Assembly (NCBI GenBank): GCA_902552035.1 | Contig: CACDFC010000006.1 | Span: forward strand, 1 to 57,033 | Source of the DNA: an uncultured Pelagibacteraceae bacterium | Lineage (GTDB): Bacteria > Pseudomonadota > Alphaproteobacteria > Pelagibacterales > Pelagibacteraceae | Length of the DNA stretch: 57,033 nt | Direction: 5' to 3' | Shown: positions 5,294 to 31,445 of the stretch, in pieces | Position numbering within the stretch: the stretch's first letter is position 1 | Layout of the letters: each line of letters begins with the position of its first letter | Made by a program: the position numbers and the translations under genes | The notes under the pieces: generated by a model | What the model was told of the DNA's origin: nothing | The model's database searches: none | What the model saw: only the letters and a program-made list of their open reading frames with translations

Positions 5294-6220
5294 TTAAGCT
5301 ATCGATCTTAAAAAATAGTTATTAACAAGGGCTTTGGGTAAAGTTTTACTTTTAATTTCAAGAATTGAATAGTTAGCATCATTAGCTAAAATTTTTCTTA
5401 AAACTTGATTTGTTAAATTATGTCCGCCTTGCGAACATTGAATATTTGCCAGCATTTTATAACCAGTTAAATATATATCTCCAATACAATCTAATATCTT
5501 ATGATTTACAAATTCTTTATTATTTCTAAGACCTTCTTCATTCAATATTTTATTACCTTTAACTACTACCGCGTTTTTTAGACTTCCACCTCTAGCTAAA
5601 TTCATTTTTTTTAATTTTTCTATATCATCATACAAACAAAAGGTTCTGGAAGACAATATTTTATCTATATCATCTTCATATACATTTATCATATTTCTTT
5701 GTTTACCTATTAAAGAATTTGGAAAATCTATCTCAAAGTCGATGGTTAAATTTACTCTGCTTGGTGAAATTTTGATATATTTTTCTCCTACAGAAAGTTT
5801 AATTTCTTTATCAATTTTTATTAATTTAATAGGCTGATCGCTTATTTCTAGTCCTACATCATCAATTAATTTTAAAAATTCTTTAGATGAACCATCCATT
5901 ATTGGGATCTCAGGTCCATTAACTTGTATAATTGCATTATCTATGCCTTTTACATAAAGAGCTGCCATCAAATGCTCAATTGTAGAAATCTTTACTCCAA
6001 ACTCGTTTGATATCGTGGTGCAGAAACTTGCTTCACTTACATTAAAAACATTAGGTATTATAATATTATTTTTTTTTAAATCGTTTCTAATAAATGTGAT
6101 TCCTGTATTAGGAGAAGATGGTAAAATTTTAACTTCTACTTTTTTACCAGAATGCAAACCGATACCATTGAATTTTGTCGGTTTTTTTATGGACTTCTGA
6201 TTTAATATATTTGAATTCAC
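5294..6220 (-). CDS. lpxC: UDP-3-O-acyl-N-acetylglucosamine deacetylase LpxC
   Basis: Zinc-dependent deacetylase and committed step of lipid A synthesis in the cytoplasm, which implies an LPS-bearing outer membrane. At 308 aa it is full length. The zinc ligands line up with the family: His83 in IEHLMAA, His240 and Asp244 in NHKILDCIGD, plus a catalytic His in GGHNLTNQ. The start codon is GTG. A 65-bp gap separates it from the truncated ftsA upstream, the largest spacer in this cluster. In related genomes ftsZ usually fills this slot; here it lies at the far end of the cluster. Confidence 0.97.
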   Translation of the reverse strand: MNSNILNQKSIKKPTKFNGIGLHSGKKVEVKILPSSPNTGITFIRNDLKKNNIIIPNVFNVSEASFCTTISNEFGVKISTIEHLMAALYVKGIDNAIIQVNGPEIPIMDGSSKEFLKLIDDVGLEISDQPIKLIKIDKEIKLSVGEKYIKISPSRVNLTIDFEIDFPNSLIGKQRNMINVYEDDIDKILSSRTFCLYDDIEKLKKMNLARGGSLKNAVVVKGNKILNEEGLRNNKEFVNHKILDCIGDIYLTGYKMLANIQCSQGGHNLTNQVLRKILANDANYSILEIKSKTLPKALVNNYFLRSIA

Positions 6221-6285: not shown

Positions 6286-6996
6286 TTATCTTAGGAAAAA
6301 TTTGAACAATCTCTCAAAAAAAGGATGTTTTTTACTGGTTTTTGGTACTATTTGAACTTCATTTTCATTCATGCCCATTATGGTTTTAATCCCCGCTCGA
6401 GAAATTTGCAGTTCTTCCGGTAAATCTTTTTCTAAAATTGATTCAAGATATTTAGAACAAATAAACTTATTAACCTTGATTTGATTTTTTTTTAGCAAGT
6501 TTTTGAAATTAAGAATATCTTCAGATGGATAGCATATAAAATTTAAAATAATTGAAAAATCTTCTGCACTAAAATTTTTCAAGATTTCAGTTTTTTTTAT
6601 CTTGTTAATATAAAAGTTCTCAAGGACTATATGTAGAATTGTAAGATTTTTATTTTGTTCAATAATTTGTTGCCTTGCATCTTGGATGAGATATTTAATA
6701 TCCTGATGAGTAACTTCTAAATTTTCTTTTTTTTTAAAAATATTTAATTTTATATTTATAGATTTATTAAGATCTAAAATTATATTTATTTCGTTTACAA
6801 ATTCTCCAATTTTTTTTTCAATTTTAATTATATTGTCTCTTATTATATTTGACAAATTTTCTAAACTCTCTCGACTCGAAAAATCAAGTGTTATAGAATT
6901 AGAATATTTATTTTCATAATTTGAGTTACATGCAGTAAAAATAATTTTTAGATTTTTAAATTCTAGAAAAACAAATATTTTATTATTTTTTATCAT
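6286..6996 (-). CDS. ftsA: Truncated FtsA-like division protein lacking the ATPase core
   Basis: FtsA normally tethers FtsZ filaments to the inner membrane. This 236-aa protein is about half the usual ~420 aa. Reading it against E. coli FtsA from memory, residues 1-60 resemble the start of subdomain 1A, ~69-130 resemble subdomain 1C (VTHQDIKYLIQDAR matches VTQEDV...AK, and LHIVLENFYIN matches LHVIPQEYAID), and ~145-185 resemble the rest of 1A. The phosphate-binding GTxK and DIGGGT motifs and all of domain 2 are absent. The end (~222-236, HPFFERLFKFFLR) looks like the membrane-targeting amphipathic helix. Its place after ftsQ, with a 14-bp overlap, supports the call. The frame is intact, so it is not an obvious pseudogene. 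Confidence 0.7.
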   Translation of the reverse strand: MIKNNKIFVFLEFKNLKIIFTACNSNYENKYSNSITLDFSSRESLENLSNIIRDNIIKIEKKIGEFVNEINIILDLNKSINIKLNIFKKKENLEVTHQDIKYLIQDARQQIIEQNKNLTILHIVLENFYINKIKKTEILKNFSAEDFSIILNFICYPSEDILNFKNLLKKNQIKVNKFICSKYLESILEKDLPEELQISRAGIKTIMGMNENEVQIVPKTSKKHPFFERLFKFFLR

Positions 6997-7675
6997 ATAT
7001 TATTACTTGGTCTTTAATTCTTAAATCAATAACATAATTACTTTTATCTTTATTTTTTTTTATTATTTTCTTTGATAGTAAAAGATTATGCCCTAGTTTT
7101 TTTGTTGGTAATTTTATTTTAATTCCATTTTTATTCTCCAAATCCCATCTACCACTAGGAAAATAATAAAACGATTTTATATCACTTAATTTAAATCCAT
7201 TTTTTTTAATATAAAATAAAAGGTTTAAAAATTTTTCTTTTTGATAATCACCAAAAAAATTAGGTATATCTTTTTCTAACTTTATCAAATCATTTTCGAT
7301 AATATTACCGTTTGATCCTAAATAATATTTTTTATTATTAATATTTATTTTTGCTAATAAAGATGTTTTTTTAATATTAATAATTAATGTGGATGGTAGT
7401 TTTTTTTTAATATCAAAGCTTTCAATAAAACTAATTCTATTAAAATTATCTTTAATCTTTTTTTTATTAATAAAAAAAATATTTTGTCCTATAAGGTTAC
7501 TTGTATTTTTTTCTATTATTTTTTTAAATTTAGTATCAATATTATAAACTTCAATATTTTTTACCAAATATATTTTGGATATTTCTAAAATTTTAGTATT
7601 ACTTATTGTAGTCAATAAAAAAAATAAAAATAAATAAAAAAATATTTTTGTTTTTTTATCTAAGTATAGATGCAT
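6983..7675 (-). CDS. ftsQ: Cell division protein FtsQ
   Basis: Bitopic inner-membrane divisome protein linking early and late division proteins. At 230 aa it is on the short side. A single membrane segment (about 10-27, FFYLFLFFLLTTI) follows a lysine-rich cytoplasmic start. A POTRA-like part follows (FIESFDIKKKLPSTLIINIKK fits the usual R-x-L-P-x-T-L-x-I-x pattern) and then the FtsQ beta domain, including GRWDLENKNGIKIKLP. It overlaps ddl by 20 bp and ftsA by 14 bp, consistent with translational coupling in the classical ddl-ftsQ-ftsA order. Confidence 0.88.
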   Translation of the reverse strand: MHLYLDKKTKIFFYLFLFFLLTTISNTKILEISKIYLVKNIEVYNIDTKFKKIIEKNTSNLIGQNIFFINKKKIKDNFNRISFIESFDIKKKLPSTLIINIKKTSLLAKININNKKYYLGSNGNIIENDLIKLEKDIPNFFGDYQKEKFLNLLFYIKKNGFKLSDIKSFYYFPSGRWDLENKNGIKIKLPTKKLGHNLLLSKKIIKKNKDKSNYVIDLRIKDQVIIYDKK

Positions 7676-10882: not shown

Positions 10883-11948
10883 TTATTAAGTCAATTAATT
10901 TTTTATTTATATTATTCCAAGTGTTTTGATAAGAAATTTTACTTAAATTTTCTTTTTTAATATCATAATCTTTTTTATTTTCTATGATTTCTTTGAATAT
11001 GTTTATTATTTTATCAGTGCAATGATTATTTTGACTTACTAACCAACAAGAATTTTTTTTATTATAGAACTCAGCATTATAAAACTGATGATTATCTTTT
11101 GCATAAGGAAATGGTATAGCAATAAATGGAATATTAAAAAAAGTAAGTTCTGCTAAAGCTGATGCTCCGGAACGTGTTATAGCGATATCGAAGGTATTTA
11201 ATTTTTTATGTAAAATCTTATCATAATTAAAAAATTCATATTCTATATTTAATTTTTTGTACTCATTTTCTAATTCTTTATGGTTTTTTAAATTAAATAT
11301 TTGTTGATATAAGCTTATTTTACTAAATCTGTAAATTTTAATTATTACATCTTTGACCATTTTATCGAAAAAAAATGCACCTTGACTACCACCTAATACT
11401 AAAATTTTAATTGTATCTAATTTTTCTTTATTTTTTTTTTTTTCAAAGTTATATGTTTCTTTTCTCATTAAATTATTAATGACCGTAATCTTATTATAAA
11501 AATTTTTAGGAAAGTTTATTATTTTATCATGGTAACATATAATTTTTTTTGCATATTTAAGAATTACTTTATTTGATCTTCCAAGAACTATATTTGGCTC
11601 AAATAGAATAATTTTAATTTTAAATAATTTTGAGATTATACAAAGTGGTAATGACATATAGCCACCAGTGCTTATAAGAATATTGATTTTATTTTTTTTT
11701 AAAAAAAAAAAAGATTTAATTAATGAGAAAACGAATAAAATAAAAAATTTTGGAAACAAAAATATTGAATTATCAATTTTAGGAACATCAATTAATTCAA
11801 AAGGATATAAATTTTTATCTATAAAGTTAGTTCCTCTTTTATCTGTTACTAAGATTGTTTCAAAATTATTTTTTAAATGATCGAATATAATTAAAGAAGG
11901 TATTACATGTCCGCCTGATCCTCCAGTTGAAATTAATATTTTTTTCAC
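10872..11948 (-). CDS. murG: Lipid I N-acetylglucosaminyltransferase MurG
   Basis: Peripheral inner-membrane GT28 enzyme that adds GlcNAc to lipid I, giving lipid II. At 358 aa it is full length. Visible are the N-terminal glycine loop TGGSGGHVIPS, the second loop STGGYMSLP, the domain-linking LVLGGSQGA, and the C-terminal SGASALAELTFFNIPFIAIP and PYAKDNHQ. The ATG overlaps the ftsW stop by 4 bp and the gene overlaps murC by 11 bp. Confidence 0.96.
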   Translation of the reverse strand: MKKILISTGGSGGHVIPSLIIFDHLKNNFETILVTDKRGTNFIDKNLYPFELIDVPKIDNSIFLFPKFFILFVFSLIKSFFFLKKNKINILISTGGYMSLPLCIISKLFKIKIILFEPNIVLGRSNKVILKYAKKIICYHDKIINFPKNFYNKITVINNLMRKETYNFEKKKNKEKLDTIKILVLGGSQGAFFFDKMVKDVIIKIYRFSKISLYQQIFNLKNHKELENEYKKLNIEYEFFNYDKILHKKLNTFDIAITRSGASALAELTFFNIPFIAIPFPYAKDNHQFYNAEFYNKKNSCWLVSQNNHCTDKIINIFKEIIENKKDYDIKKENLSKISYQNTWNNINKKLIDLINEN

Positions 11949-13072
11949 AAATTACTTACCGTTCTTTTAGTTAAATTTAGTATTATACCTGATAACATAG
12001 CTGTACCTACAATTGATGAACCACCATAACTTATAAATGGTAGAGTCATTCCGGTAGTCGGCAAAATTCTTATATTTACACCAAAATGAATGTAAGTTTG
12101 TATTAACAAAATAGAAATTGATCCGGTTAAAATTAATTTTACTAGATTATCATTTTCATCATCAATTTTTTTGGCAATTGTAAAGGCCAAAAATAGATAA
12201 ACAAACATTATTAAAATTACCAAAATTATACCAAATTCTTCTGAGATAACAGAAACAATATAGTCAGTATGTGCCTCGGGTATTTTTGAATTTAGCTTGC
12301 CTTCTCCTAACCCTCTTCCAAAGAAACCACCATTGATTATTGCTTCTGATGCTCTCTCTGACTGATAATTATTACCTGTATTTGGATCAATAAAAGATAA
12401 TATTCTTTTTTTTATATAAAAAAATTTGGGAACAAATAAAACTAGATAAGATAGAAAAATTCCTATTATTGTAAAGAAAGAAAAAAAAATAAAAAGATTA
12501 ACACCTGATACAAATATTAACGAAAACCATGTTAATACAATTAATGTTGTTTGACCAATATCTGGCTGATTTATTAATAGTAAAATTACAGGTAGTGCAA
12601 CAATAAAACTTAACAAATATTTAGCATAGATTTTACTTAAATAGTTAGAGGATAAAATTACAGCAACTAACACTATAAAAAAAGGTTTTAAAATCTCTAT
12701 TGGTTGAAATCTTGGCAAAGTGCCGATATCTATCCATCTTCTGGAACCTTTGACTTCTGTTCCAAAGATTGGAACCATTAATAAAGCAATAAATGACAAA
12801 AAAAATAAGAATATACAGATTTTAATTAATTTAGTTTTTTCTAAAGAGGAAAAAAAAATAAATATAGCAAGCGATATTAGAATAAAAATCAAGTGTTTTA
12901 AAAAAAAATAATACGAATTTGTATTTAGCTTATCACTTGCAATTAAAGAGGTCGAAACTAAAGAAAAAAATAATCCCAAAGAAAATAAAAATATTATTAA
13001 TAACAAAATTATTTTATCTACACTTTTCCACCAATCATAATAAAATTTATGTAAATCAAATTTTTTTTTCAT
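11945..13072 (-). CDS. ftsW: Septal peptidoglycan polymerase FtsW (SEDS family)
   Basis: Multi-pass SEDS glycosyltransferase that polymerises lipid II at the septum together with FtsI. At 375 aa it has about ten hydrophobic segments. Motifs seen are GSRRWIDIG, QPDIGQTTL, GRGLGEGKLNSKIPEAHTDY, ISEEFG and the C-terminal PFISYGGSS. It sits between murD and murG, as in the standard dcw order, which favours FtsW over the elongation paralogue RodA. It overlaps both neighbours by 4 bp. Confidence 0.96.
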   Translation of the reverse strand: MKKKFDLHKFYYDWWKSVDKIILLLIIFLFSLGLFFSLVSTSLIASDKLNTNSYYFFLKHLIFILISLAIFIFFSSLEKTKLIKICIFLFFLSFIALLMVPIFGTEVKGSRRWIDIGTLPRFQPIEILKPFFIVLVAVILSSNYLSKIYAKYLLSFIVALPVILLLINQPDIGQTTLIVLTWFSLIFVSGVNLFIFFSFFTIIGIFLSYLVLFVPKFFYIKKRILSFIDPNTGNNYQSERASEAIINGGFFGRGLGEGKLNSKIPEAHTDYIVSVISEEFGIILVILIMFVYLFLAFTIAKKIDDENDNLVKLILTGSISILLIQTYIHFGVNIRILPTTGMTLPFISYGGSSIVGTAMLSGIILNLTKRTVSNL

Positions 13073-14361: not shown

Positions 14362-15446
14362 TATCTTAACTTGAGAGTAGCCAATCCTATCATAGCTAGT
14401 ATTATAGATATTATCCAAAAACGTATAACTACAGTTGACTCTGGCCATCCTTTCTTTTCAAAATGATGATGAACAGGAGCCATTTTGAATATTCTTTTAC
14501 CAGTTATTTTAAATGATAAAACTTGAACTATTACTGATATTGCCTCAAAAACAAATAAACCTCCAGTTATAGCTAATACAATTTCGTGCTTAGTTATTAT
14601 ACCAATTGAACCTAGAGATCCTCCTAAGGCTAAAGAACCTGTGTCTCCCATAAATATTTTTGCTGGTGGAGCATTGAACCAAAGAAATCCTAAGCACGAT
14701 CCTATAATTGCTCCGCAAAAAATAGTAACTTCACCCGCTCCTTCGATATAAGGAATGTGTAAATAATCAGAAAAGACAATATTTCCTGTTACATAACTGA
14801 TAAACGCAAAGCAAGCAGCAACTAAGATTACTGGCACAGTTGCAAGACCATCCAAACCATCAGTTAAATTTACTGCATTAGAAGATCCAACGATAACAAA
14901 TAAGTAAAACGGCACAAAAAACCAACCTAAATTAATTATTAAGTTCTTAAAAAAAGGAAAATACAAATTTTTAATTTCACTAAAATCACTTAAAATGTAA
15001 AGCACAAATATACCAATTAGAGCGAATAAAATTTGAAATAAGATTTTTATTTTTAATGATATGCCCGCTGAACTTTTTGTTTTAATTTTTTTAATATCAT
15101 CAATGGCGCCAATTAATCCAAAAGAAAAAGTTATAAAAATTATAAACCATACTAAATGATTTGTTAAATCACACCAAAGGAAAACACTCAAAAATAATCC
15201 TAATAAAATTAAAACTCCACCCATGGTTGGTGTGCCAATCTTTCTAACTATATGGTCCTCAGGGCCATCTTTTCTAATTGGATCATGAATTTTTTTTGAT
15301 GAGAAAAAATTTATAAAAGGATTGCCAATAATAAAAACAATAACCATAGAAGTAAACATTGCTAGACCGGTTCTTACTGTTAGGTATTTAAAAACATTTA
15401 AAAACGAAAAAGTATCAACCAAACTCAAAAATAAAGAATAGAGCAT
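14361..15446 (-). CDS. mraY: Phospho-N-acetylmuramoyl-pentapeptide transferase
   Basis: Polytopic inner-membrane enzyme that transfers phospho-MurNAc-pentapeptide to undecaprenyl phosphate, forming lipid I. At 361 aa it has about ten membrane segments. Visible are the catalytic loops GAIDDIKK, NLTDGLDGLATVP, FMGDTGSLALGG and the family signature MAPVHHHFEKKGWPE. It starts on the same base (15446) at which murEF ends, indicating coupling, and is followed by murD. Confidence 0.98.
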   Translation of the reverse strand: MLYSLFLSLVDTFSFLNVFKYLTVRTGLAMFTSMVIVFIIGNPFINFFSSKKIHDPIRKDGPEDHIVRKIGTPTMGGVLILLGLFLSVFLWCDLTNHLVWFIIFITFSFGLIGAIDDIKKIKTKSSAGISLKIKILFQILFALIGIFVLYILSDFSEIKNLYFPFFKNLIINLGWFFVPFYLFVIVGSSNAVNLTDGLDGLATVPVILVAACFAFISYVTGNIVFSDYLHIPYIEGAGEVTIFCGAIIGSCLGFLWFNAPPAKIFMGDTGSLALGGSLGSIGIITKHEIVLAITGGLFVFEAISVIVQVLSFKITGKRIFKMAPVHHHFEKKGWPESTVVIRFWIISIILAMIGLATLKLR

Positions 15447-18283
15447 TAGATTACTCCTCTGTTAAATTGTGATACAACCTCATTTAAACCTGTTGCATTA
15501 GATCCTTTTATCATTAAATAATCGTTATTCGATAAATCATTTTTAATAAAATCTATAATTTCATTTTTATTTTTAAAAATTTTACCCTTTTTATGTGTTT
15601 TTATCTTATTAAATGTGTGTCTTATATGTTTACCATATACATAAATTTTGTTTGCATTAGATTTATTTATAAATTTAGCTATTTTGATATGAAGGTTTTT
15701 TGAAAACTTTCCAAGTTCTAACATATCACCTAATAAAATATTTTTTCTTTTATTGTTAATTCCAATTTTATTAAACTTATGAACTGCAAATTGTAAAGAT
15801 AAAGGATTTGAATTATAGGACTCATCTATAATTTTTAAATTCTTTGTACCAATTTTTAAATTAATTTTATTTCCTCTTCCATTTGGGATTGTAAAATTCA
15901 AAAATAATTTATTATTTAAATTTACTATATCTATAAAATTAGAGATTACAGCTAGTGCTGCAAGTATATTATCAACATATAAATAATTTTCTTCATTTAC
16001 TAAAAATTTCTTAATTTTATTTTGTATTTTCACAGTAATTGAGTAGTAAGATTTTTTTTTAATACATTTAATAAATTGAACATCTGCTATTTTTTTTTTA
16101 CTGAATGAAATTATTTTTAAGTTTTTTTTAATAGCTTTATTTTTAAAAAAATTAAAAAAATCATCATCTTTATTTAAAACCATAGTTCCATTTTCTGCTA
16201 TATTGTCTATTAATTCTGATTTTGCTTCAGCAATTTTTGAAATTTTTTTAAAATTTTTAATATGTGCGTATGATATATTTGTAATAACCCCTATTTCAGG
16301 CTTTACTATTTTTGACAATTCATTAATTTCTCCTTTTTTGTCCATTCCTATTTCAAAAACTCCATAAAGATTTTTTTTATGAATATTTAAAAGGGATATA
16401 GGTACCCCAAACTTATTATTAAAAGAATTTCTAGTATAAAATGTGGAATTTAATTTGTTTAAAGATCGTCCAAGCAACTCTTTTAAAGATGTTTTTCCAG
16501 AACTACCTGTTATAGCAATTGAATTTATATTTGAAGCTTTCCTAAAATTTTTAGCAATTTTTAAAAAAAAATTAAAAGTATTTTTAACTTTTATTTTTTT
16601 GTTTTTGAATTTATTGGAATAGTCTTTATCTATAACTGAAAATAATGCACCATTTTTAATAGCATTGTCTGCAAAAATATTTCCATTTTTAATTTTTCCT
16701 TTTAAACCGACAAATAAGTCGTTTTTTTCTATTTCCTTTGAATTTATTGAAATTTTATTTATTTTTTTTGAATTGTTAATTTTAAAATTATCTAAAGACT
16801 CGTTTATAACATTTATCTTCCAATCATTTGAGATACTTTTGTTTTTTTCGTTTATATATTTTAATATGCATGCTCTGTCAGAAAATAAAATTTTTTCTCG
16901 ATATTCCTGATAGTTCTCATGACCTTTGCCTGCAACTAACAATACATCTCCTGAATTTAAATTTAATATTGCCTGCTTAATTGCTTTTTCTCTTGATGAT
17001 ATTTCAAATAATTTTGATTTATTTATTTTTTTTTTGATTTGATTTCTTATTTTAAATGGTTTTTCATTTCTTGGATTATCATCGGTTAAATAAATCTTAT
17101 TACAAAAATTACTTGCTACTTCTCCCATCATTTTTCTTTTTGGCTTATCTCTTTCGCCTCCGCAACCAAATACAATAGAGATATTGCTCAATTTGTAATG
17201 ATTTTTTAAATTTCTTAGACATACCCTTAATGCCTCAGGTGTATGTGCATAATCTAAAATAACTTTTGAATTATTATTTAATTTTCCAATATTTTCCATT
17301 CTTCCTTTAACTTCTTTTATTTTATGAATTGATTTTAAAATTTTATTAATTCGAACATATTTGCTCGCTGCAATAATAGCCATTAATAAATTTTTAATTT
17401 GAATTTTACCAATCAGCGGTGTTTCAAATGAAAATATTTTTTTCTTATACTCAAAGAAAACTTTTTGCTTATCTTTTAACGAAATCTGTTTAATTAATTT
17501 TAAATTGGAACATTTTCCACCTATAATAAGGCACCTTGAATCATTTTTTTTGGCAATTTTTTTAATTTTAGCACCATATTTTGAATTTGAGTCAAATATC
17601 ACAGTAGATTTTTTTTTCATTAATTTTTTAAATAAAATCATTTTAGAGTCAAAATAATTTTTAAATGACTTGTGATAATCAAGATGATCTCTTGATAAAT
17701 TTGTAAATATTCCAATATCAAAATGAAGTCCATCTAATCTATTTTGCTTAAGTCCGTGTGATGACGCTTCCAAAATTACTGTATCGATTTTTTTTTTTTT
17801 TAAATTGTATAAAATTTTATTTAAACTCAATGGATCAAGAGTTGTATTTGATAAATTGTAATCAATTTTTTTTTGATTTACACCAAGTGTGCCTATTGCA
17901 GCAGCCTTTTTATTATTTAATAACATGATTTGTAAAAAAAAATTTGAAACTGAGGTTTTGCCATTTGTGCCTGTAACTGCAATAAGATTTTTGGGTTTCT
18001 TATTATAAAAAAAAGTTGAAGCTTCTGCTAATGTTTTTCTCGGATTCTTACTTTTTAAAAATAAAATATCTTCTTTATAACCTTGAAATTTTAAATCAGA
18101 TACAATGGTTTTCGCGCCATTTTTAATTGCATTATTTATAAATCTATTACCATTTATTTTTGTACCTCTTATTGCAAAGAAAATATCATTTTTCTCACAG
18201 TTATTACTGTTAAATTCTATTTTTGAAAAAGAATGGTTTAGATATTTTTTATCTAAATTTTTAAATATTTTTTGTAATTGCAT
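15446..18283 (-). CDS. murE-murF: MurE-MurF fusion: bifunctional UDP-MurNAc-tripeptide ligase / D-Ala-D-Ala adding enzyme
   Basis: One uninterrupted 945-aa frame carries two complete Mur ligases. The MurE half (about 1-475) has VTGTNGKTSVSN, EASSHGLKQNRLDG, HLDYH and TDDNPRNE; the DNPR signature indicates meso-diaminopimelate as substrate. The MurF half (about 485-945) has its own N-terminal domain (RINGNK-like region KINKISINSKEIEKNDLF), ITGSSGKTSLKE, EIGMDKKGEI, YNSNP and GDMLELG. Both ATP loops look intact. MurE/MurF fusions are known from some other bacteria such as Bordetella. The gene lies between ftsI and mraY, where murE and murF normally stand as separate genes. Confidence 0.95.
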   Translation of the reverse strand: MQLQKIFKNLDKKYLNHSFSKIEFNSNNCEKNDIFFAIRGTKINGNRFINNAIKNGAKTIVSDLKFQGYKEDILFLKSKNPRKTLAEASTFFYNKKPKNLIAVTGTNGKTSVSNFFLQIMLLNNKKAAAIGTLGVNQKKIDYNLSNTTLDPLSLNKILYNLKKKKIDTVILEASSHGLKQNRLDGLHFDIGIFTNLSRDHLDYHKSFKNYFDSKMILFKKLMKKKSTVIFDSNSKYGAKIKKIAKKNDSRCLIIGGKCSNLKLIKQISLKDKQKVFFEYKKKIFSFETPLIGKIQIKNLLMAIIAASKYVRINKILKSIHKIKEVKGRMENIGKLNNNSKVILDYAHTPEALRVCLRNLKNHYKLSNISIVFGCGGERDKPKRKMMGEVASNFCNKIYLTDDNPRNEKPFKIRNQIKKKINKSKLFEISSREKAIKQAILNLNSGDVLLVAGKGHENYQEYREKILFSDRACILKYINEKNKSISNDWKINVINESLDNFKINNSKKINKISINSKEIEKNDLFVGLKGKIKNGNIFADNAIKNGALFSVIDKDYSNKFKNKKIKVKNTFNFFLKIAKNFRKASNINSIAITGSSGKTSLKELLGRSLNKLNSTFYTRNSFNNKFGVPISLLNIHKKNLYGVFEIGMDKKGEINELSKIVKPEIGVITNISYAHIKNFKKISKIAEAKSELIDNIAENGTMVLNKDDDFFNFFKNKAIKKNLKIISFSKKKIADVQFIKCIKKKSYYSITVKIQNKIKKFLVNEENYLYVDNILAALAVISNFIDIVNLNNKLFLNFTIPNGRGNKINLKIGTKNLKIIDESYNSNPLSLQFAVHKFNKIGINNKRKNILLGDMLELGKFSKNLHIKIAKFINKSNANKIYVYGKHIRHTFNKIKTHKKGKIFKNKNEIIDFIKNDLSNNDYLMIKGSNATGLNEVVSQFNRGVI

Positions 18284-18300: not shown

Positions 18301-19959
18301 TTAGTATTTTGTGGCTAAAATTGGCCCAATTTTTTCAATCATCTTTCCTGCAATTTCAACCGAAGTCCAACCGGCTGTATTAAAAGGCGTACCTTTTAAA
18401 GTAAAATTCGAATTTCTTAATTTGTAAACATAATCTTCTGAAGTCTTTGGAGCTTCTAATAATACAACTAATACAAATTTTGGATTTATTGATGGAAAAA
18501 TTGATGCAAAAGTATTTATTTTTACTCTAGAATATCCATCACCGATAACTTGCTGCGCTGTACCTGTCTTTCCTGCAACATCATATCCTGGTACATTGGC
18601 TTGTTCAGCTGTCCCCTCTTTGGTTGATACTATCTTTCTTAAGGCAGTATTAATTTTTTCTGAAACTCCTTTTTTTAATATTTGATTTTTTTTTTGTAAA
18701 TTTTTTTTTTTTATTAAAGTAGGATCAATATCATAACCACCATTAGATAGAATTGCATAACCTTTTGCTATTTGTAATGGTGTTGTTGTTATACCATGAC
18801 CAAAGGATACAGTTGCAAGTTTGCATTTACCCCAATCAAATGGAATAGGTTTACCAACTTCTTCAAGATCAAAATCAATTTTATTTAGGATACCAATTTT
18901 TTTTAAAAATAATTTATGCTTATCTTCTCCTATTTTTTGGGCAATGCGAACAGAGCCTATATTTCCTGACCTAACTAATATTTGTTCAGCAGTAAGATCG
19001 GTTGGAATTTTTTCATCATATTCCCTAATAATATGTTTTCCACATCTAATAGCTTTTTTTAAATCTAAAAACTCAGTATTTGTGTCAACAACACCCTCAT
19101 TAAGTGCCGATGCTAAAGTAAATGTTTTAAATACAGAACCAAGCTCGTAAACACCTTTCGTGGCTCTATTAAGATAAATCTTGTCACTTAAATCTATCCT
19201 TTTATTTAAATCGAAATCAGGTAGAGATACCATTGAAAGTATTTCTCCAGAATCTATATTCATAAGAATTGTTGTACTTCCAACATTTTTAAAAATTTCT
19301 GTAAATTTTAATAACTCTTGCCTTATAATGTATTGTAAATTCATATCTAAAGTAAGTTTTAAGGAATCTTTATTGCTTCGAAGTTCATAATCATAAGATT
19401 TTTCAATACCTGAAATACCTTTGTTGCTATCATCTATTTGTCCTATCACATGACTAAATAGTTCTTTCTGTGGATAAATTCGTGAAATTTTTTGTTCTTC
19501 AATTATTGCCTTGTCGCCGAGGAAAAAGAGCTGATTATATTTGTCTTTTGAGATTTTTTTTTCTAAATAAAAAAATTTACCTTTTTCAATTTTATCTGAA
19601 ATATCCTCAAAATTTTTAGTTGGAAATATTATTTTTAGATTAATTAATAATTTTTTTTTATCTATAATAAGTTTAGGGTTTATTCCAATATTAGTTGTGA
19701 GCACACTTTGCGCTAAAATATTGTTATTTCTATCTATTATAGATGATCTAAAGTCAGACTGATATATTTTAACTTTTGGGTGTTGTTTTTGTGATCCTAA
19801 ATAAATAATTTTAATAGAAAAAATAATCGTAATAACAAAAAGAATAAAAATTATAAATGCAATTCTGTTAAAAGATATATCTTGATTTGATTTTAATCTT
19901 ATATTTTTAAAATCTGCTTCATATTCCTCTAAAACTAATCGATTTTGATTTTTACTCAT
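18301..19959 (-). CDS. ftsI: Septal peptidoglycan transpeptidase FtsI (PBP3)
   Basis: Class B penicillin-binding protein that cross-links septal peptidoglycan in the periplasm. At 552 aa it has an N-terminal membrane anchor (about 29-50), a PBP dimerisation domain and a transpeptidase domain. The three active-site motifs are visible: SVFK (~273), SGN (~330) and KTGT (~462). It overlaps ftsL by 8 bp, and 17 bases separate it from murEF. Order and length both favour FtsI over another class B PBP. Confidence 0.96.
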   Translation of the reverse strand: MSKNQNRLVLEEYEADFKNIRLKSNQDISFNRIAFIIFILFVITIIFSIKIIYLGSQKQHPKVKIYQSDFRSSIIDRNNNILAQSVLTTNIGINPKLIIDKKKLLINLKIIFPTKNFEDISDKIEKGKFFYLEKKISKDKYNQLFFLGDKAIIEEQKISRIYPQKELFSHVIGQIDDSNKGISGIEKSYDYELRSNKDSLKLTLDMNLQYIIRQELLKFTEIFKNVGSTTILMNIDSGEILSMVSLPDFDLNKRIDLSDKIYLNRATKGVYELGSVFKTFTLASALNEGVVDTNTEFLDLKKAIRCGKHIIREYDEKIPTDLTAEQILVRSGNIGSVRIAQKIGEDKHKLFLKKIGILNKIDFDLEEVGKPIPFDWGKCKLATVSFGHGITTTPLQIAKGYAILSNGGYDIDPTLIKKKNLQKKNQILKKGVSEKINTALRKIVSTKEGTAEQANVPGYDVAGKTGTAQQVIGDGYSRVKINTFASIFPSINPKFVLVVLLEAPKTSEDYVYKLRNSNFTLKGTPFNTAGWTSVEIAGKMIEKIGPILATKY

Positions 19960-20221
19960 TTCTTAAATCCAAAACCTGAATATCTGATCTACTTATATGC
20001 TTTAATTTTTGATCAAAATATTTTTCATTAAATTCTATTAATTTAGATGGTGAACTTAAATAATTATAATCTAATAATAATAATTCATACTTATACTCTA
20101 AGAGAAGAATATTTTCTTTTATTTCAAAAATTTTTTTATCAATGTTTTTTGTGGAATTTTTAATTGATGTTGTTAAAAAAATTAAGCTTACAACAACAAG
20201 TACTAAAAAAAAATTCTTCAT
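19952..20221 (-). CDS. ftsL: FtsL-like small divisome membrane protein
   Basis: This 89-aa bitopic protein has a single hydrophobic segment at about 4-20 and then a Leu/Ile/Glu/Lys-rich helical stretch compatible with a coiled coil (KIFEIKENILLLEYKYEL). FtsL forms a subcomplex with FtsB and FtsQ that activates FtsWI. FtsL sequences are poorly conserved, so the call rests on size, topology and position between rsmH and ftsI, overlapping them by 4 and 8 bp. The C-terminal half contains SSPSKLIEFNEKYF, similar to the region after the coiled coil in other FtsL proteins. Confidence 0.8.
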   Translation of the reverse strand: MKNFFLVLVVVSLIFLTTSIKNSTKNIDKKIFEIKENILLLEYKYELLLLDYNYLSSPSKLIEFNEKYFDQKLKHISRSDIQVLDLRNE

Positions 20222-21237: not shown

Positions 21238-22677
21238 TTAATTTTTTTGTCTTCTCAAAAATGCGGGAATTTCAAATTCGTCATCATCTTCTGTATTATT
21301 TTCATTGTTATCAAAAGATATTGGTTCTTCTTTATCAGTGCTATCGTCTGAATTAAAAAGCTCTAAAGTTTCTTCCTCTATATTAAAGTTTTCAAGACCA
21401 TTGGCATTTTTATTCTCTTGATCTAGATTTTCAGGTTTAGCCTCATTATCACTAATAGTTATATTTTTCTGAGTTATATTTGTATCCAAGTCTTTTATTA
21501 GATTATTATCTTCACTAATTATTTCTGGGTTAATTTCATTTTCCAGAAATTCTTCATCTATTTTTAAGGCATTTGTACCCTCGGTTGAGGATGACATACT
21601 TTGTGAAAAATTAAATGATTGACCAGAAACATTGTTTAGAGGTTCTGAGTAGCCAGGATTCCTATTTTGAATTCTATGGACCATATTAATTACAGATTTT
21701 GACTCTGGCTGTTGTCCATCTAAAGCGGTTGCAACAATTGAAACTCTCATTTTACCGTCTAATTCTGGGTCAGTAATTGCACCAATTATTAATTCAGCTT
21801 CTGGATCTACTTCTGATCTTACTTTGTTTACTGCTTCGTCAACCTCAAAAAGTTTCAAATCCTTTCCGCCTGTTATATTAATTAATAATCCTTTTGCACC
21901 TTTAAGAGTGTAATCATCAATTAAAGGGTTTGTAATAGCCATCTCAGCAGCTTTAATTGCTCTACCTTCTCCTTCGGCTGATCCTGTTCCCATCATTGCT
22001 TTGCCCATTGAGCTCATTACTGTTTCAACATCTGCAAAATCTAAGTTTATTAAACCAGGTCTTACCATTAAGTCAGTTATGCTTTGAACTCCGTGCAATA
22101 AAACGTCATTTGAAAGTTCAAATGATTCCTCAAATGTAGTTTGCTCACTTGCTATTTTAAATAAATTTTGATTGGGAACTACAATAATAGTATCTACGTG
22201 TTTTCTTAATTCTTCTAATCCTTGTTGTGCTCTTCTCATTCTTGATGGGCCCTCGTATAAAAATGGAAGTGTAACAACACCAACAGTTAGAATATTAAGC
22301 TCTTTTGCAGCTCTAGCAATTACATGTGCTGAACCTGTACCAGTTCCTCCACCCATTCCAGCAGTTATAAAAACCATGTTAGAACCTTGTAAAATATTTA
22401 TAATTTCATTCAAAGACTCATCTGCTGCGGCTTGGCCTATGTCTAATTTTGCACCTGCGCCCAATCCTTTTGTTAAATTTAAACCCATTTGAATTTTTGC
22501 TTTGGCTCTACTTTCTTTTAAATCTTGAGCGTCAGTATTTACTGCAATAAATTCTACACCTTGTAATCCCGCATCGATCATTCCATTTATTGCATTTCCT
22601 CCCGCTCCTCCAACGCCAAGAACAAGTATTCTTGGCTTTAGTTCTCTTATATCTGGTGCTTTGAAGTTAATTGTCAT
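21238..22677 (-). CDS. ftsZ: Cell division GTPase FtsZ
   Basis: Tubulin-like GTPase that forms the Z ring. At 479 aa it has the GTP signature GGGTGTG (109-115), the T7 synergy loop NLDFADVE (~212), an acidic Asn-rich linker (~330-465), and the C-terminal peptide EIPAFLRRQ that normally binds FtsA, ZipA or SepF. The ATG is preceded by a strong Shine-Dalgarno-like AAGGGGG, unusual among the weak sites here and suggesting high translation. Position is odd: it sits directly after mraZ, not after ftsA. The gene is intact and alphaproteobacterial in type. Confidence 0.99.
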
Positions 22678-25859: not shown

Positions 25860-26834
25860 TTGAAAGAAAAAAATAGAATACTAAATAAATTTGATCAAGA
25901 TAAAACTAGACCAGTTTTATTTAGTGAAAGTTTTGGGGGGAGTGAAAGTCAAGTAAGATTACTATTTAAACATGTACCTGATAAAAATTTTGAAAATATA
26001 AATTTAATTTTAAATAATACAGAACCAACCTTAGTAGAAAAAGATAAAATTAACGTTTTATGGGTTCATCATTTTATCAATCAAAAAGAGGTTCAAAATT
26101 TATCTGATAAGACTTATTTAGAAAAAATTGATTATATTATTTTTAATTCAATGTGGAATTTTAAAAAACATTTGCATTATTTTAAGATCCCAGAAAAAAA
26201 GTGTCTTGTAATAAAAAATGCTATTGAGAGAATAGATCCTGCTCAGAAACCAAAGGATCAAATGAATCTTATTTATCACACAACTCCTTGGAGAGGTCTT
26301 AAACTACTACTAGATGTATTCAAAGAAATAAAAAAAAAAGAAAACCTAAAACTTAATATTTGTTCATCTACAATAATATATGGAGAAAAATTTTTTTCAG
26401 AGTATGAGAATAAATTTCATGATTTATTTGAAGATTGTAAAAGAACAGAGAATGTTGAATTTCATAGTTATATGAAAAATGATAAAATTATTGAATTACT
26501 AAAGAATATGCATATATTTTCTTATCCAAGTATATGGCCAGAGACTAGTTGCATTGCGGCTATAGAAGCAATGGCTTCTGGTTGTGAAATAGTTACTACA
26601 AATTTAGGTGCTCTTGTAGAAACATGTAAAAAATTCGGGACTTTCGTAAATTTTGAAACAGATAATGAAAATTTAAAAAAAAAATTTAGAGAGAAATTAG
26701 AATTTAGTATAGATAATTTTTGGTCAGAAAGTAATCAACAAAAATTAAACGAACAAAGTAAGGAAATAAACAAACTTTACTCATGGGAAACAAGAAAATT
26801 AGAGTGGATTAATTTTTTGGAAAAATTAAAATGA
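25860..26834 (+). CDS. Glycosyltransferase, GT4-like (GT-B fold)
   Basis: A 324-aa protein with the C-terminal nucleotide-sugar binding region of group 1 glycosyltransferases: YHTTPWRGLKLLLDVF, then SYPSIWPETSCIAAIEAMASGC containing the E-x7-E pattern. The N-terminal ESFGGSESQVRLLF fits the acceptor domain. The start is probably the TTG at 25860, as the next in-frame Met is far inside the conserved region. It lies 10 bases after mlaC and overlaps the convergent gene on the minus strand by 9 bp. Donor and acceptor are unknown; a role in surface polysaccharide is inferred from the neighbours. Confidence 0.85.
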   Translation: MKEKNRILNKFDQDKTRPVLFSESFGGSESQVRLLFKHVPDKNFENINLILNNTEPTLVEKDKINVLWVHHFINQKEVQNLSDKTYLEKIDYIIFNSMWNFKKHLHYFKIPEKKCLVIKNAIERIDPAQKPKDQMNLIYHTTPWRGLKLLLDVFKEIKKKENLKLNICSSTIIYGEKFFSEYENKFHDLFEDCKRTENVEFHSYMKNDKIIELLKNMHIFSYPSIWPETSCIAAIEAMASGCEIVTTNLGALVETCKKFGTFVNFETDNENLKKKFREKLEFSIDNFWSESNQQKLNEQSKEINKLYSWETRKLEWINFLEKLK

Positions 26835-27563
26835 GTCTAATTTTAATTTTTGCATTTCATCGAGCATATATTTAAAACTTACAAAAGCTTTTTTATCTCT
26901 CTCTTTTACTGCATCTATCAAATTTTCAGCATATGTAGAAATTAAACCTGATTTGTTGTTATGAGATACGTAAATTGTCTTTTTTTTTCCCATTTCATCC
27001 TCTTTTAAAAAATTGTGTAGAGACAATATTTTATTTTTTTTTATAAAGAATAGAAAAAAAGATATCCATAAATCATCATACAAAAATAATTCAAAGTTAT
27101 CTTTTACAATTTTATCATAAAATATATTTATATTTTCTAGTGAATTTGTATTTATTGCAAAACCATCTGCGCCTTGACCAATTCCAAATTTGCCTAAAGG
27201 ATGAACATAAAAACTATAAGCATTATTAGGATTCTTTCGATAAAATTTATAAAACGTTTCTAACATGTAATCCTCATAGATTTGATCATCATCTGCAAGA
27301 ACTATTAAAGAATTTTCTTTTAATTTATTAATTGAACCAAGTAATTTTGTTCCAGGACCACAATCATCACACCTTGTTATTTCTACAATATCTGGCAGTT
27401 TGGGAATGTCTTTATCTATGATAGTCTCTTTAAAACGTTTAAAGTATTTTGGAATGTTTAAAAATATTTTATCTGGTTTTAAAGATTGATTCATCAATGA
27501 GTCAATAGACTTATTTATTGTGTTAATTCTTGAAGGTATAGTGCTTAAAGATACATAAATCAT
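26826..27563 (-). CDS. Putative GT-A-like glycosyltransferase of unassigned family
   Basis: A 245-aa protein starting MIYVSLSTIPSRINTINKSI, a pattern seen in glycosyltransferase-like proteins that begin with a beta strand followed by a helix. It contains LIVLADDDQIY, an aspartate-rich motif resembling the metal/nucleotide-sugar site of GT-A enzymes, then a G-Q-G-A-D-G segment and LFLYDDLWISFFLFF. The gene lies two bases downstream of the GT17-like gene and is likely co-transcribed with it. Function beyond sugar transfer cannot be stated. Confidence 0.6.
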   Translation of the reverse strand: MIYVSLSTIPSRINTINKSIDSLMNQSLKPDKIFLNIPKYFKRFKETIIDKDIPKLPDIVEITRCDDCGPGTKLLGSINKLKENSLIVLADDDQIYEDYMLETFYKFYRKNPNNAYSFYVHPLGKFGIGQGADGFAINTNSLENINIFYDKIVKDNFELFLYDDLWISFFLFFIKKNKILSLHNFLKEDEMGKKKTIYVSHNNKSGLISTYAENLIDAVKERDKKAFVSFKYMLDEMQKLKLDSF

Positions 27564-27564
27564 T

Positions 27565-28383
27565 TTAGTGATAAAAATAAAATTTTTTATTATCTTCCAT
27601 AAGCATTAGTAGATCCTCTGGGAAAAAATTTTTTTGTATTTTTTTCTTTTTTACTTTTCTTTTAAATAAATCTGTACCATTTTTTAAACAATTATTAATA
27701 TGTTCTTCACTTTTAAAATAATCGTTATTATATTCGCTATGTGCAAACGCCTCAAACTTTTCTCGTATTTTTTCTAAACTACCAAAAGATGAAAAACTCC
27801 AACCTGCTTGAGCTAACATAGAAATTCTCCACCGATTATTCCTTAAATCTTGGGGTTTAAATTTTTGTATAATTTCATTTTTGGTTGCAATTGTTCCAAC
27901 CCACTTTTCTAGGTTTAAATATTCACAATTAATGTGAAATAAAAATTGTTCAAATGCGACTGGGTTAATCTCATCGAATTCACATTCTTTTAAAAATTTT
28001 ATTTTTTTTAATGATGGAATTTCATCAACATCACTTATTAATATTATATCTTCTTTAGAAAAATCTTTGCATGCATTTTGAATAAAATTTCTTTGAATAT
28101 TTTCTATTTTCCAAGATTTTCCACCTTTAACATTTTCTGATATCCAGCCCTCATTTTTCTCAATATCTTTTTCATCTATAGTCAATTTGTGATACTTTAT
28201 TTTATTCTTAAAAGGCAAAAGATTTGTATTTAATATCTTTTCAAAATTCCATTCTTTGGTCTTTCCCTGATGGGTAATATTAGCCTCAACAATTACAAAA
28301 AAATCGACTTCATCTTTTAAGTATTTGATCCTCAGGTCAGCTAATTCTTTTTCATTAAAATATAAAAATGTATCTATAATCAT
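27565..28383 (-). CDS. Glycosyltransferase family 17-like protein
   Basis: A 272-aa protein resembling the GT17 family (beta-1,4-mannosyl-glycoprotein N-acetylglucosaminyltransferase type). It begins IIDTFLYFNEKELADLRI, followed by VDFFVIVEANITHQGK, DIILISDVDEIPSL with the acidic DVDE site, and WSFSSFGSLEKIREKFEAFAHSEYN. These are the family's hallmark segments in bacterial members. Its bacterial substrate is unknown. It is transcribed divergently from the next glycosyltransferase across a 42-bp AT-rich gap. Confidence 0.8.
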   Translation of the reverse strand: MIIDTFLYFNEKELADLRIKYLKDEVDFFVIVEANITHQGKTKEWNFEKILNTNLLPFKNKIKYHKLTIDEKDIEKNEGWISENVKGGKSWKIENIQRNFIQNACKDFSKEDIILISDVDEIPSLKKIKFLKECEFDEINPVAFEQFLFHINCEYLNLEKWVGTIATKNEIIQKFKPQDLRNNRWRISMLAQAGWSFSSFGSLEKIREKFEAFAHSEYNNDYFKSEEHINNCLKNGTDLFKRKVKKKKIQKNFFPEDLLMLMEDNKKFYFYH

Positions 28384-28425
28384 ATATGTTTGATTATAAA
28401 ATATATTTAAAATATTAATACTTTA

Positions 28426-29310
28426 ATGAAAACTATAAAATTTGCAGGTTTGGGCTGGGATGGTTACACAGGCCAAATATCAAGGATTAGGGAGGGTGTA
28501 AAAGAATTAGGTCATTCGCTAGACCTTGAAAATCCTGATCTAATATATTGTAATGATCCTACTCAATATATTAATGCGATCAAACTTAAGAGAAAATTTC
28601 CAAAGTCCTTTTTAATCTTAAATTTTTTAGATGTTCCTTGGCATATGCCTGGAGTAATAAAAAAATTGACTCTAGAGGCAACCATCATGAAAAAGGAAGC
28701 AAATATAGTGACGGTTATTAGCAATAAAGTAAAAAAAGATTTATTGAAATTTTACGATGGTGAAACGGAAGTTATATACAATCCTGTTAAAGACGTAAAA
28801 TTGAATAAAGAAATATCAAAAATTAATAATTATCTTTATGTTGGGAGAGCAAATGATCCAATTAAAAGAGTTAAATTAATTCATGAAACTTTCAAGAACG
28901 AAGAAAAAACACTTAATAAAATTATATTCTGTGGCTTTGAAGACCCTAAGTTTGGAAATTATTTAGGAGTTGTAAAAGATGAAAAACTGACAGAATTATA
29001 TAATTCATCAAAATTTGTTTTACTGCCTTCAAAAGCTGAGGGAATTGGTTTATCGATGATAGAAGGCATGATATGTGGTGCAGTTCCAATTATGTGTTCA
29101 GATAATTTAACTGCGAAAGAATTTGCACCTATAGAATTTATTTGCGATCCTGATCATATATCTTTCAAAAAGAAAATTGAAGAAATTGAATCGAATTATG
29201 AAAAGTTTAGAAAATTAGCAATTTCCTATGGAGAAAAATATAAGGTTCAATTCAATAAAAAAACAATAGCAAAAAATATAATTAATATTTACAATAAAAA
29301 CATTGAATAA
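28426..29310 (+). CDS. Glycosyltransferase, GT4-like (GT-B fold)
   Basis: A 294-aa protein with a short N-terminal domain (KFAGLGWDGYTGQISRIREG) and a C-terminal nucleotide-sugar domain (YVGRANDPIKRVKLI, then LPSKAEGIGLSMIEGMICGAVPI) with the acidic E-x7-E pattern. It is the first gene of a plus-strand run of five that ends at the tRNA genes. The next gene starts 8 bp inside it. The transferred sugar is unknown. Confidence 0.82.
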   Translation: MKTIKFAGLGWDGYTGQISRIREGVKELGHSLDLENPDLIYCNDPTQYINAIKLKRKFPKSFLILNFLDVPWHMPGVIKKLTLEATIMKKEANIVTVISNKVKKDLLKFYDGETEVIYNPVKDVKLNKEISKINNYLYVGRANDPIKRVKLIHETFKNEEKTLNKIIFCGFEDPKFGNYLGVVKDEKLTELYNSSKFVLLPSKAEGIGLSMIEGMICGAVPIMCSDNLTAKEFAPIEFICDPDHISFKKKIEEIESNYEKFRKLAISYGEKYKVQFNKKTIAKNIINIYNKNIE

Positions 29311-30007
29311 AAAAATTAAATTAAAAGATGTTACATTGTTAGCAGCATCGTCAGTTAATATTGATCACACTCAAGATGCACTGATGATAAGTTCATATAA
29401 CTTAGATTTTTCGTCGATTAAATTGCTTTCACCATCCAGGCCAAAAAATATATTTAGTTCAATAGAATATGTTCAAATACCAAATATCGATTTGAAAGAT
29501 TATAATAAATTAATATTAAACGAATTATATAAATATTTCGATACATCTCATTGCCTAATTGTTCAATCTGATGCGTTTATTATTAATTCTGAAATGTGGA
29601 CTGATGAATTTTTAGATTATGATTACATAGGGGCTCCTTGGACAGAAAAAATTAAACCAAATAACAAACTTACTTTAGATTTAAAAAAAAATAGAGTTGG
29701 AAATGGAGGTTTTTCATTAAGAAGTAAGAAACTTACAAATATTACAAAAAATTATAAATATAAAGATATGAACTTTCCTGTTGCACAAGAAGACGTTATA
29801 ATTTGCTATTATCTTTACGATGAGCTCAAAAAAAAAGATATAAATTTTGCGCCAATAAATTTAGCTGCAAAATTTTCAGTTGAAGACCCACGGACTAATG
29901 AAAAATTTGGTATAAATGATAAAAATGTATTTGGATTTCATGGAAAACATTTACAAAAATATTTTAAAGAAAATTTTATTAAAAATAGTTTAAGATATAA
30001 ATTATAA
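29303..30007 (+). CDS. DUF5672 family protein, probable glycan-modifying enzyme
   Basis: A 234-aa protein with the DUF5672 pattern: VTLLAASSVNIDHTQDAL, the SHCLIVQSDAFIINSEMW segment, FLDYDYIGAPW, GNGGFSLRSKKL and a terminal FGFHGKHL. Members are often found in polysaccharide clusters, and their D-x-D-like site suggests glycosyltransferase ancestry, but the reaction is not established. A TTG start at 29303 overlaps the preceding gene by 8 bp; no better start is seen upstream of the conserved part. Confidence 0.75.
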   Translation: MNKKIKLKDVTLLAASSVNIDHTQDALMISSYNLDFSSIKLLSPSRPKNIFSSIEYVQIPNIDLKDYNKLILNELYKYFDTSHCLIVQSDAFIINSEMWTDEFLDYDYIGAPWTEKIKPNNKLTLDLKKNRVGNGGFSLRSKKLTNITKNYKYKDMNFPVAQEDVIICYYLYDELKKKDINFAPINLAAKFSVEDPRTNEKFGINDKNVFGFHGKHLQKYFKENFIKNSLRYKL

Positions 30008-30009
30008 AC

Positions 30010-30711
30010 ATGCTTAAAAAATTTTATTTAAAATTAGACAAATCAAAGTTTCCTGAGATATGTATCCAGAAAGCATCTGCAGAGAATAAATTTTGTGAAA
30101 CTGTAATTAATATCAATTGGTATGATATACTTTTCAACAGAATTTCATTTATATCTCTAGCAACTCAAAAATTTAAAAATTGTAAATATTTGGAAATAGG
30201 CACAGATTTAAATTTATGTTTTAATTGCATACCTGTAATTGATAAAATAGGAGTCGATCCAAAGCGAGGTGGAACAATTAGAAAAACATCTGATGATTTT
30301 TTTACTGATAATAAGGATTTATTTGATGTTATATTTGTTGATGGTCTTCATACATTTGAACAATGTCGAAAAGATGTAATAAATTCAATCAAATTCTTAA
30401 ATGTGGGCGGTTACCTTTTTATACACGATCTTATACCAAGAAATTTTATGGAGGAATTTAGTCCTCCTATGGGAACTCCCTGGTCAGGTGATGTTTGGAA
30501 AGTTGCACAAGAACTTTGTAAATCTGATGGTATAGAATTTTATGTAATAAAAGCTGACCACGGCATTGGTCTAGTCAAAAAAATAAAAAAAAATGTAAGT
30601 TACCATGATGACTATGAGAGACTTAGTACGTTAAAATTTAAAGATTTTTTAGAAATCAACAGTGATATTAAATATATAGACTCAGATGAAGCAATTAAAA
30701 TTATTAAATAA
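30010..30711 (+). CDS. Class I SAM-dependent methyltransferase
   Basis: A 233-aa protein with a Rossmann-type SAM domain: YLEIGTDLNLCFN (motif I), KIGVDPKRGGT, and DLFDVIFVDGLHTFEQCRKD, then GGYLFIHDLIP. This resembles the methyltransferase_24 group, which often acts on sugars or glycan precursors. It lies two bases after the DUF5672 gene, within the sugar island. Substrate unknown; O-methylation of a surface glycan is a reasonable guess from context. Confidence 0.8.
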   Translation: MLKKFYLKLDKSKFPEICIQKASAENKFCETVININWYDILFNRISFISLATQKFKNCKYLEIGTDLNLCFNCIPVIDKIGVDPKRGGTIRKTSDDFFTDNKDLFDVIFVDGLHTFEQCRKDVINSIKFLNVGGYLFIHDLIPRNFMEEFSPPMGTPWSGDVWKVAQELCKSDGIEFYVIKADHGIGLVKKIKKNVSYHDDYERLSTLKFKDFLEINSDIKYIDSDEAIKIIK

Positions 30712-30728
30712 TCAATTTAATTAAGTTT

Positions 30729-31430: not shown

Positions 31431-31445
31431 TTTTAATTAATTGAG

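Follow-up and report, generated by a model that had tools for sequence, protein, structure and literature searches.

A half-size FtsA without domain 2 in the ftsQ-lpxC slot of SAR11 bacteria

The dcw cluster of an uncultured Pelagibacteraceae (SAR11) bacterium, contained in 57,033 nucleotides of contig CACDFC010000006.1 (the whole stretch analysed, referred to here as the window), raises the question of which protein takes the place of FtsA and what such a protein may still do: the gene following ftsQ codes for only 236 residues. A sequence-only reading of the window had described the product as an FtsA that retains subdomains 1A and 1C and an amphipathic C-terminal helix, but is devoid of the phosphate motifs and of all of domain 2, and had considered for it either a new mode of FtsZ anchoring or a role as a membrane adaptor toward FtsQLWI. 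The open reading frame was found between ftsQ and lpxC, as that reading had placed it; it lies on the minus strand, and its product is called mini-FtsA in the following; the coordinates of the gene, of its parts and of the relevant neighbours are collected in Table 1.

Table 1. Positions in the window of mini-ftsA, of the parts of its product and of other division genes.
Feature	Positions	Strand	Remark
mini-FtsA, 236-aa FtsA-derived protein (1A + 1C + membrane helix)	6286..6996	minus	ATG start
First part of subdomain 1A, residues 1-76	6769..6996	minus	phosphate-1 motif lost; approximate boundary
Subdomain 1C (SHS2-like), residues 77-157	6526..6768	minus	approximate boundary
Second part of subdomain 1A, residues 158-190	6427..6525	minus	approximate boundary
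Linker, about residues 188-194, versus about 140 residues of domain 2 (2A/2B) in long relatives	6415..6435	minus	joint alignment-dependent
Helix, residues 194-206, probably the last 1A helix (after domain 2 in FtsA)	6379..6417	minus	from sequence alignments
Predicted C-terminal amphipathic membrane-targeting helix, residues 226-235	6292..6321	minus	structure model and hydrophobic moment
ftsQ	6983..7675	minus	14-nt overlap with the start of mini-ftsA
lpxC, downstream neighbour of mini-ftsA	5294..6220	minus	65-nt gap after mini-ftsA
ftsZ, between mraZ and rsmH	21238..22677	minus	
FtsZ C-terminal peptide EIPAFLRRQ	21247..21273	minus	
ftsW, septal synthase partner, downstream	11945..13072	minus	
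ftsI, septal synthase partner, downstream	18301..19959	minus	
89-aa ORF in the ftsL position, N-terminal hydrophobic stretch	19952..20221	minus	name from position alone

The order of the genes on the minus strand is mraZ-ftsZ-rsmH-(ftsL position)-ftsI-murE/F-mraY-murD-ftsW-murG-murC-murB-ddl-ftsQ-X-lpxC-bamD, where X is the gene under study and several of the names derive from reading the translations and from the query set used. Three features of this region may be recorded on their own account. In those dcw stretches read that include ftsZ, from either family of the order, the gene lies between mraZ and rsmH and away from ftsA. murE and murF form a single ORF in the window (15446-18283), 945 aa long and comprising two Mur ligase modules; the murE-murF ORF has about 870-960 aa in the same-genus loci holding it whole and about 475 aa in the second family. 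Finally, positions 25860-32150 contain glycosyltransferase-like and other sugar-related ORFs on mixed strands, as judged by eye.

The 236-aa protein is descended from FtsA. Taken singly, it matches Pfam SHS2_FTSA at residues 88-132 (E 0.003; 18.3 bits, under the 25.4-bit cut-off) and NCBIfam TIGR01174 (ftsA) at residues 44-184 (E 2e-5; 23.9 bits, far under the equivalog cut-off of 175.85), and SHS2_FTSA is above cut-off in two relatives having a protein of the same short type (G034 and G008). Among 19 such short forms, three reach SHS2_FTSA at 0.01 and none reaches PF14450. A profile built from the 19 matches residues 64-193 of an E. coli FtsA chain (7q6d) with E 8.7e-5 and two further FtsA chains below E 0.001; T. 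maritima FtsA was reached only with E 0.83, behind an unrelated chain at 0.51. The connection is closest within SAR11, where a long FtsA also exists: the long forms match solved FtsA structures (best E 2.2e-15), PF14450 is found in 9/9 of them, and the alignment of the short profile with a profile of nine long SAR11 FtsA has a probability of 99.9 and E 1e-33 over 180 columns, ending right before domain 2.

The predicted structure points in the same direction. The model of mini-FtsA, obtained with 19 aligned rows, has a pLDDT of 84.8 and a pTM of 0.78; a Foldseek search against the PDB gave FtsA chains as its top 19 matches (E 2.9e-12 to 4.7e-9), followed by PilM and EpsL/GspL, so that the fold is not one unrelated to FtsA. 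In the comparison with E. coli FtsA, 197 residues are aligned, model residues 4-208 corresponding to positions 6-388 of a 383-residue chain; both ends of FtsA are thus matched while about half of the chain is skipped, and sequence alignments suggest that the skipped half is domain 2. For the long form of HTCC9565 (L081), the model (pLDDT 83.3) is that of a full FtsA. At the C-terminus, the best 11-residue stretch of the tail, FFERLFKFFLR, has a hydrophobic moment of 0.88; the tail-helix region is modelled with middling to low confidence (block means 50-53) and is preceded by a low-confidence linker.

Where the long form has domain 2 (2A/2B), with about 140 residues, the short form has a linker of about 10. 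The position of the joint varies with the alignment: residues 211-351 of L081 are without short-form counterpart in a 60-row alignment, and the hhalign match stops at position 184. The deletion is accompanied by the loss of the nucleotide motif that domain 1 should carry, since the aspartate of the phosphate-1 motif is present in 0/30 short forms versus 19/19 long proteins of the same genus, and the glycine of the same D-x-G in 2/30 versus 19/19. Loss of this half-site also is what would be expected if ATP is no longer bound. Other positions did not change: a glutamate of 1A is invariant in both groups (30/30 and 19/19), and one column of the tail is phenylalanine in all 30 short and all 19 long proteins. 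The phosphate-2 and adenosine motifs of the actin fold are located in the missing domain 2; the GGG of the usual phosphate-2 loop is absent from the SAR11 long forms when their alignment is read, and in long FtsA from outside the genus (L059-L063, L095, L195-L197, L200, L201) the phosphate-1 aspartate is found in 7/11 and the glycine in 5/11. The lack of GGG in the long forms, together with an aspartate in only 7/11 proteins outside the genus, suggests that the loss of the domain may have followed upon a weakening of the ATP site. Mini-FtsA is FtsA by descent, yet it fails three of the FtsA-defining features tested, namely domain 2, the nucleotide motif and the equivalog score. On these points the sequence-only reading is borne out: 1A and 1C are recovered by TIGR01174, by the short-form profile against E. 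coli FtsA and by the predicted fold, the phosphate-1 aspartate and domain 2 are gone, and an amphipathic C-terminal helix is predicted where it had been proposed.

The slot was compared in related genomes, as had been suggested from the sequence. The order ddl-ftsQ-X-lpxC was seen in the 29 loci whose contig covers the slot, X being split by a stop in one genome (G010) and frameshifted in another (G012). Between ftsQ and lpxC, the frames of same-genus genomes have 377-398 aa in some and 231-237 aa in others; the existence of two length classes in the same slot of related genomes indicates that the 236-aa ORF is not due to chance. A search with the window protein found matches in 28/61 related genomes at E <=0.1, some of them by chance (frames of about 1010 aa are among the weakest), while a model including both short and long forms matched 275/399 genomes of the genus at 1e-4 and 131/147 genomes in an order-wide draw. 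The genus of the window is represented in this draw by 76 genomes, 44 with a short form (220-245 aa), 22 with a long one (370-401 aa), seven with fragments and three without match; four fragments (G180, G165, G383, G432) and one of the genomes without match (G131) break at contig ends, and in the other two (G142, G430) ddl lies less than 480 bases from a contig end. The other three fragments are those of G012, which has a frameshift, G494 and G499. A natural comparison is offered by G408, with a short form, and G427, with a long one. The other genera of the family gave 16 matches: the frame has 378-420 aa in 14 of them, and the remaining two (216 and 320) are located less than about 1000 bases from a contig start. 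In the second family, the frame length is 397-403 aa for all 42 matches. No match was obtained in 13 genomes outside the genus, and the two of them that were read have long frames (G050, 397; G474, 399). Since the matches in other genera and in the second family are long when intact, the short form is confined to the genus of the window in this sample, where it is the commoner of the two forms.

Some irregularities of the locus were observed along with these counts. In G012 the reading frame of the short ftsA shifts within a poly-A run, some 75 codons from its start, for which a sequencing error, a real break or a programmed slippage are all possible; in G010 (AG-910-M23; L036, L080) the long ftsA has an in-frame TAA after an open frame of 185 codons, near the border between domains 1 and 2 and within poly-A/T runs. 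Contigs of many relatives (L182-L187, L018, L020, G142:C15, G430:C1) end in or beside the ftsQ-ftsA stretch; such ends seem commoner than a few tens of contigs per genome suggest, and the place is perhaps hypervariable or hard to assemble.

The number of origins of the short form is a point on which the trees differ. A tree of 12 dcw proteins from 31 genomes needs four changes for the short form, at least three of them forced by the starred branches, and a dcw tree with 63 rows again needs four, three of them forced; a single vertical origin is rejected by the dcw data (lnL 268.85 lower, p-AU 1e-10, with a quick tree and a simple model). The dcw trees are without G003, G017, G019, G028 and G036, in which the slot is unseen, and the 63-row tree also without G035; G021, cut by a contig end, was counted as short from its sequence type, while the missing domain 2 decided the class of G012 and, in the first tree, of G035. 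The 60-row tree of the FtsA columns common to both forms (229 columns, leaving out the broken or cut G010, G012, G021 and G035) instead brings its 30 short forms together with support 100/99; placing the window next to its dcw sisters is rejected by it (p 0.001), as are two further groupings from the dcw trees (p 0.007 and 0.018). Parts of the protein do not decide between the two views: three changes are needed with 1C alone, which rejects neither (p 0.144 each), two with the first part of 1A, and one with 1C plus the second part of 1A (78/90). The flanking genes also reject neither view, with four changes for FtsQ (p 0.35 and 0.082) and three for LpxC plus BamD (p 0.47 and 0.15). Both the lateral spread of one short allele and the repeated loss of domain 2, up to four times and with convergent change in the remnant, fit these results.

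Descent from FtsA leaves some other accounts of the protein to be considered. The ftsA slot could have been taken over by a relative of GspL or PilM from the same superfamily, and the next best folds are indeed of this kind: with a structural aligner, the cytoplasmic domains of GspL/EpsL have Z 11.7-11.2 and PilM up to 11.3 (11.7-9.3 for the whole group). However, FtsA structures score higher (Z 16.2-12.9), the sequence profiles pick FtsA, and the slot is also occupied by long FtsA relatives, to which the short protein can be aligned in 1A, 1C and the tail; such a replacement is hardly credible. It also is very improbable that FtsA was split rather than reduced, with a separate gene supplying domain 2 in trans. 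The stop in the long ftsA of G010, close to where the two domains join, would be in line with a split, but with poly-A/T runs around it an error of sequencing may be its cause; moreover, a split enzyme would keep the phosphate-1 half-site of domain 1, which is lost. A search with PF14450 in 25 short-form genomes, 24 listed as at least 95% complete plus the window's own genome at about 80%, found no match in the ftsA slot and no second FtsA: 23 genomes have a single match over the cut-off in a frame of the size of MreB (344-366 aa), two have none over it, and in four there is one more frame, of 642-646 aa, that matches under the cut-off. In the window's genome, the one in which this identity was read, the lone match is MreB by its sequence and by its mreC-like neighbour; two long-form genomes searched along with these give the extra match in the ftsA slot. 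Thus, a full-length FtsA elsewhere, which the sequence-only reading had named as evidence against itself, was not found in the 25 genomes by this search.

A decaying, functionless remnant would agree with the fast evolution of the protein, whose identity to 18 other short forms is 21-33%, with the poly-A frameshift of G012 and with an in-frame TAA in one further short form (G248). Against decay, frames of 220-245 aa are found in 44/76 genomes, G012 is the only one seen broken internally, the partial frames of the four fragments listed above stop at contig ends, and the glutamate of 1A and the phenylalanine of the tail are invariant in the 30 short forms. Selection was estimated by the Nei-Gojobori method in seven pairs of close short forms, the window protein being in none of them and some pairs being near silent-site saturation: the dN/dS of short ftsA is 0.154-0.372, close to that of FtsQ in the same pairs (0.166-0.441), with 0.050-0.193 for Ddl and 0.039-0.114 for LpxC, and FtsA in three long pairs has 0.146-0.220. 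Short ftsA is under purifying selection, constrained about like ftsQ, and we regard decay as highly unlikely; the lineage of the window, which has no relative close enough, is judged by its open frame and conserved residues alone. The argument against decay made from the sequence holds with one correction: the frame is maintained and the overlap with ftsQ exists, whereas on the lpxC side there is a gap.

As regards function, the background is taken from three papers. FtsA forms its longitudinal contacts through IIA-IIB and its lateral ones through IC, and the FtsN tail is bound in the IA-IC cleft (PMC7613929); the FtsZ tail binds to 2B (PMC9098913), and 1C is reported to be required for the recruitment of FtsQ and FtsN, and deletion of 2B reportedly abolishes FtsZ binding and causes filamentation (PMC4281207). 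Without domain 2 and the phosphate-1 motif, mini-FtsA has neither the known site for the FtsZ tail nor the IIA-IIB filament contact, and its cell needs a substitute for the former, given the effect of the 2B deletion. We consider it rather probable that mini-FtsA is a natural deletion form of FtsA, acting as a nucleotide-free membrane adaptor through its 1A-1C cleft and not polymerising head to tail; we infer from the parts kept and lost that it binds the membrane, which partners it has, and that it neither binds ATP nor forms longitudinal filaments. Together with 2A and 2B the protein would have lost its ability to bind ATP, to polymerise head to tail like actin and to take up the FtsZ tail at the known site, and the 1A-1C unit would stay on the amphipathic membrane helix. 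Bitopic division proteins (FtsQ and/or a putative FtsN-like protein) would insert their cytoplasmic tails into the 1A-1C cleft, mini-FtsA would in this way help to switch on FtsWI, and FtsZ would get to the membrane through another or weaker contact. Some oligomerisation may remain, since 1C is also reported to be required for the self-interaction of FtsA (PMC4281207) and makes the lateral contacts. Furthermore, the FtsN tail raises FtsA self-interaction (PMC9098913) and double filaments of FtsA and FtsN have been proposed to organise synthesis (PMC7613929), both of which speak against a simple picture where the monomer is the active form.

The main rival is that mini-FtsA still tethers FtsZ, a new site on 1A or 1C having taken over the FtsZ tail after the loss of 2B. 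The intact EIPAFLRRQ noticed in the sequence-only reading was confirmed in the C-terminal 11 residues of the window's FtsZ, and the same peptide is kept in 13/13 short-form and 9/9 long-form FtsZ proteins, with EIPAFLRRQ or EIPSFLRRQ in eight more; its retention suggests that something probably still binds it. Other candidates for this task were looked for in 12 genomes, seven of them short-form: SepF is over cut-off in none, with three weak matches below it, and FtsE is over the equivalog cut-off in none, a result of less weight because many ABC ATPases match below it. These absences and the phenylalanine shared by the tails of short and long proteins would favour a new site. On the other hand, the site on FtsA reported for the FtsZ tail lies in 2B (PMC9098913) and is now gone; the FtsZ tail is identical in long- and short-form genomes and may serve other partners; and no new conserved surface appears, with five invariant columns of 246 in 19 short forms. 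A new FtsZ site is the less likely reading, though it deserves more attention than the accounts discussed before, and the adaptor toward FtsQLWI is the favoured of the two roles.

The role of the ATP site and of the filaments of FtsA is an open question in bacterial division. In a free-living group that is very abundant in the ocean, nature seems to have deleted both and the FtsZ site as well, while close relatives keep them. It appears about equally arguable either way that much of SAR11 divides without an FtsA able to bind ATP, to polymerise head to tail or to grip FtsZ in the known manner, with 1A-1C and a membrane helix as a sufficient FtsA core and a Z-ring tethered by an undescribed mode; the division machinery of the many SAR11 bacteria with the short form probably works outside the textbook model. 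If so, FtsA could not be reduced beyond the 1A-1C unit, and a new explanation would be required for how FtsZ is tethered in short-form cells; mini-FtsA also offers a core of 236 residues for studies on the binding of FtsQ and FtsN tails. No description of a half-size FtsA was found in the literature on SAR11 or Pelagibacter FtsA, on truncated or domain-lacking FtsA and on FtsA loss, as far as its text was accessible, with subscription papers mostly and bioRxiv preprints wholly outside the search.

Mini-FtsA resembles canonical FtsA (E. coli, T. maritima, S. aureus; TIGR01174) in its slot after ftsQ, in the folds of 1A and 1C and in its predicted final 1A helix and tail helix, and differs from it in having neither 2A/2B nor the phosphate-1 motif and in scoring far under the equivalog cut-off. 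It shares with the long FtsA of SAR11 (370-401 aa in the genus, e.g. HTCC9565) the ftsQ-lpxC slot and alignable 1A, 1C and tail; unlike mini-FtsA, the long proteins of the same genus keep domain 2 and the phosphate-1 D-x-G. The cytoplasmic domain of GspL/EpsL and PilM have a related fold, but with Z scores below those of FtsA and no profile match up to E 1. The superfamily of FtsA, PilM and GspL yields membrane adaptors. PilM binds the tail of the bitopic PilN in the same interdomain cleft that FtsA uses for FtsN, although in a different mode (PMC7613929). A likeness may also be proposed with FtsA* (FtsA R286W) and other self-interaction mutants, which are less self-interacting and good recruiters of downstream proteins (PMC9098913); these, however, carry point mutations in an FtsA of full length, with its ATP and FtsZ sites retained, so that mini-FtsA may represent their natural extreme.
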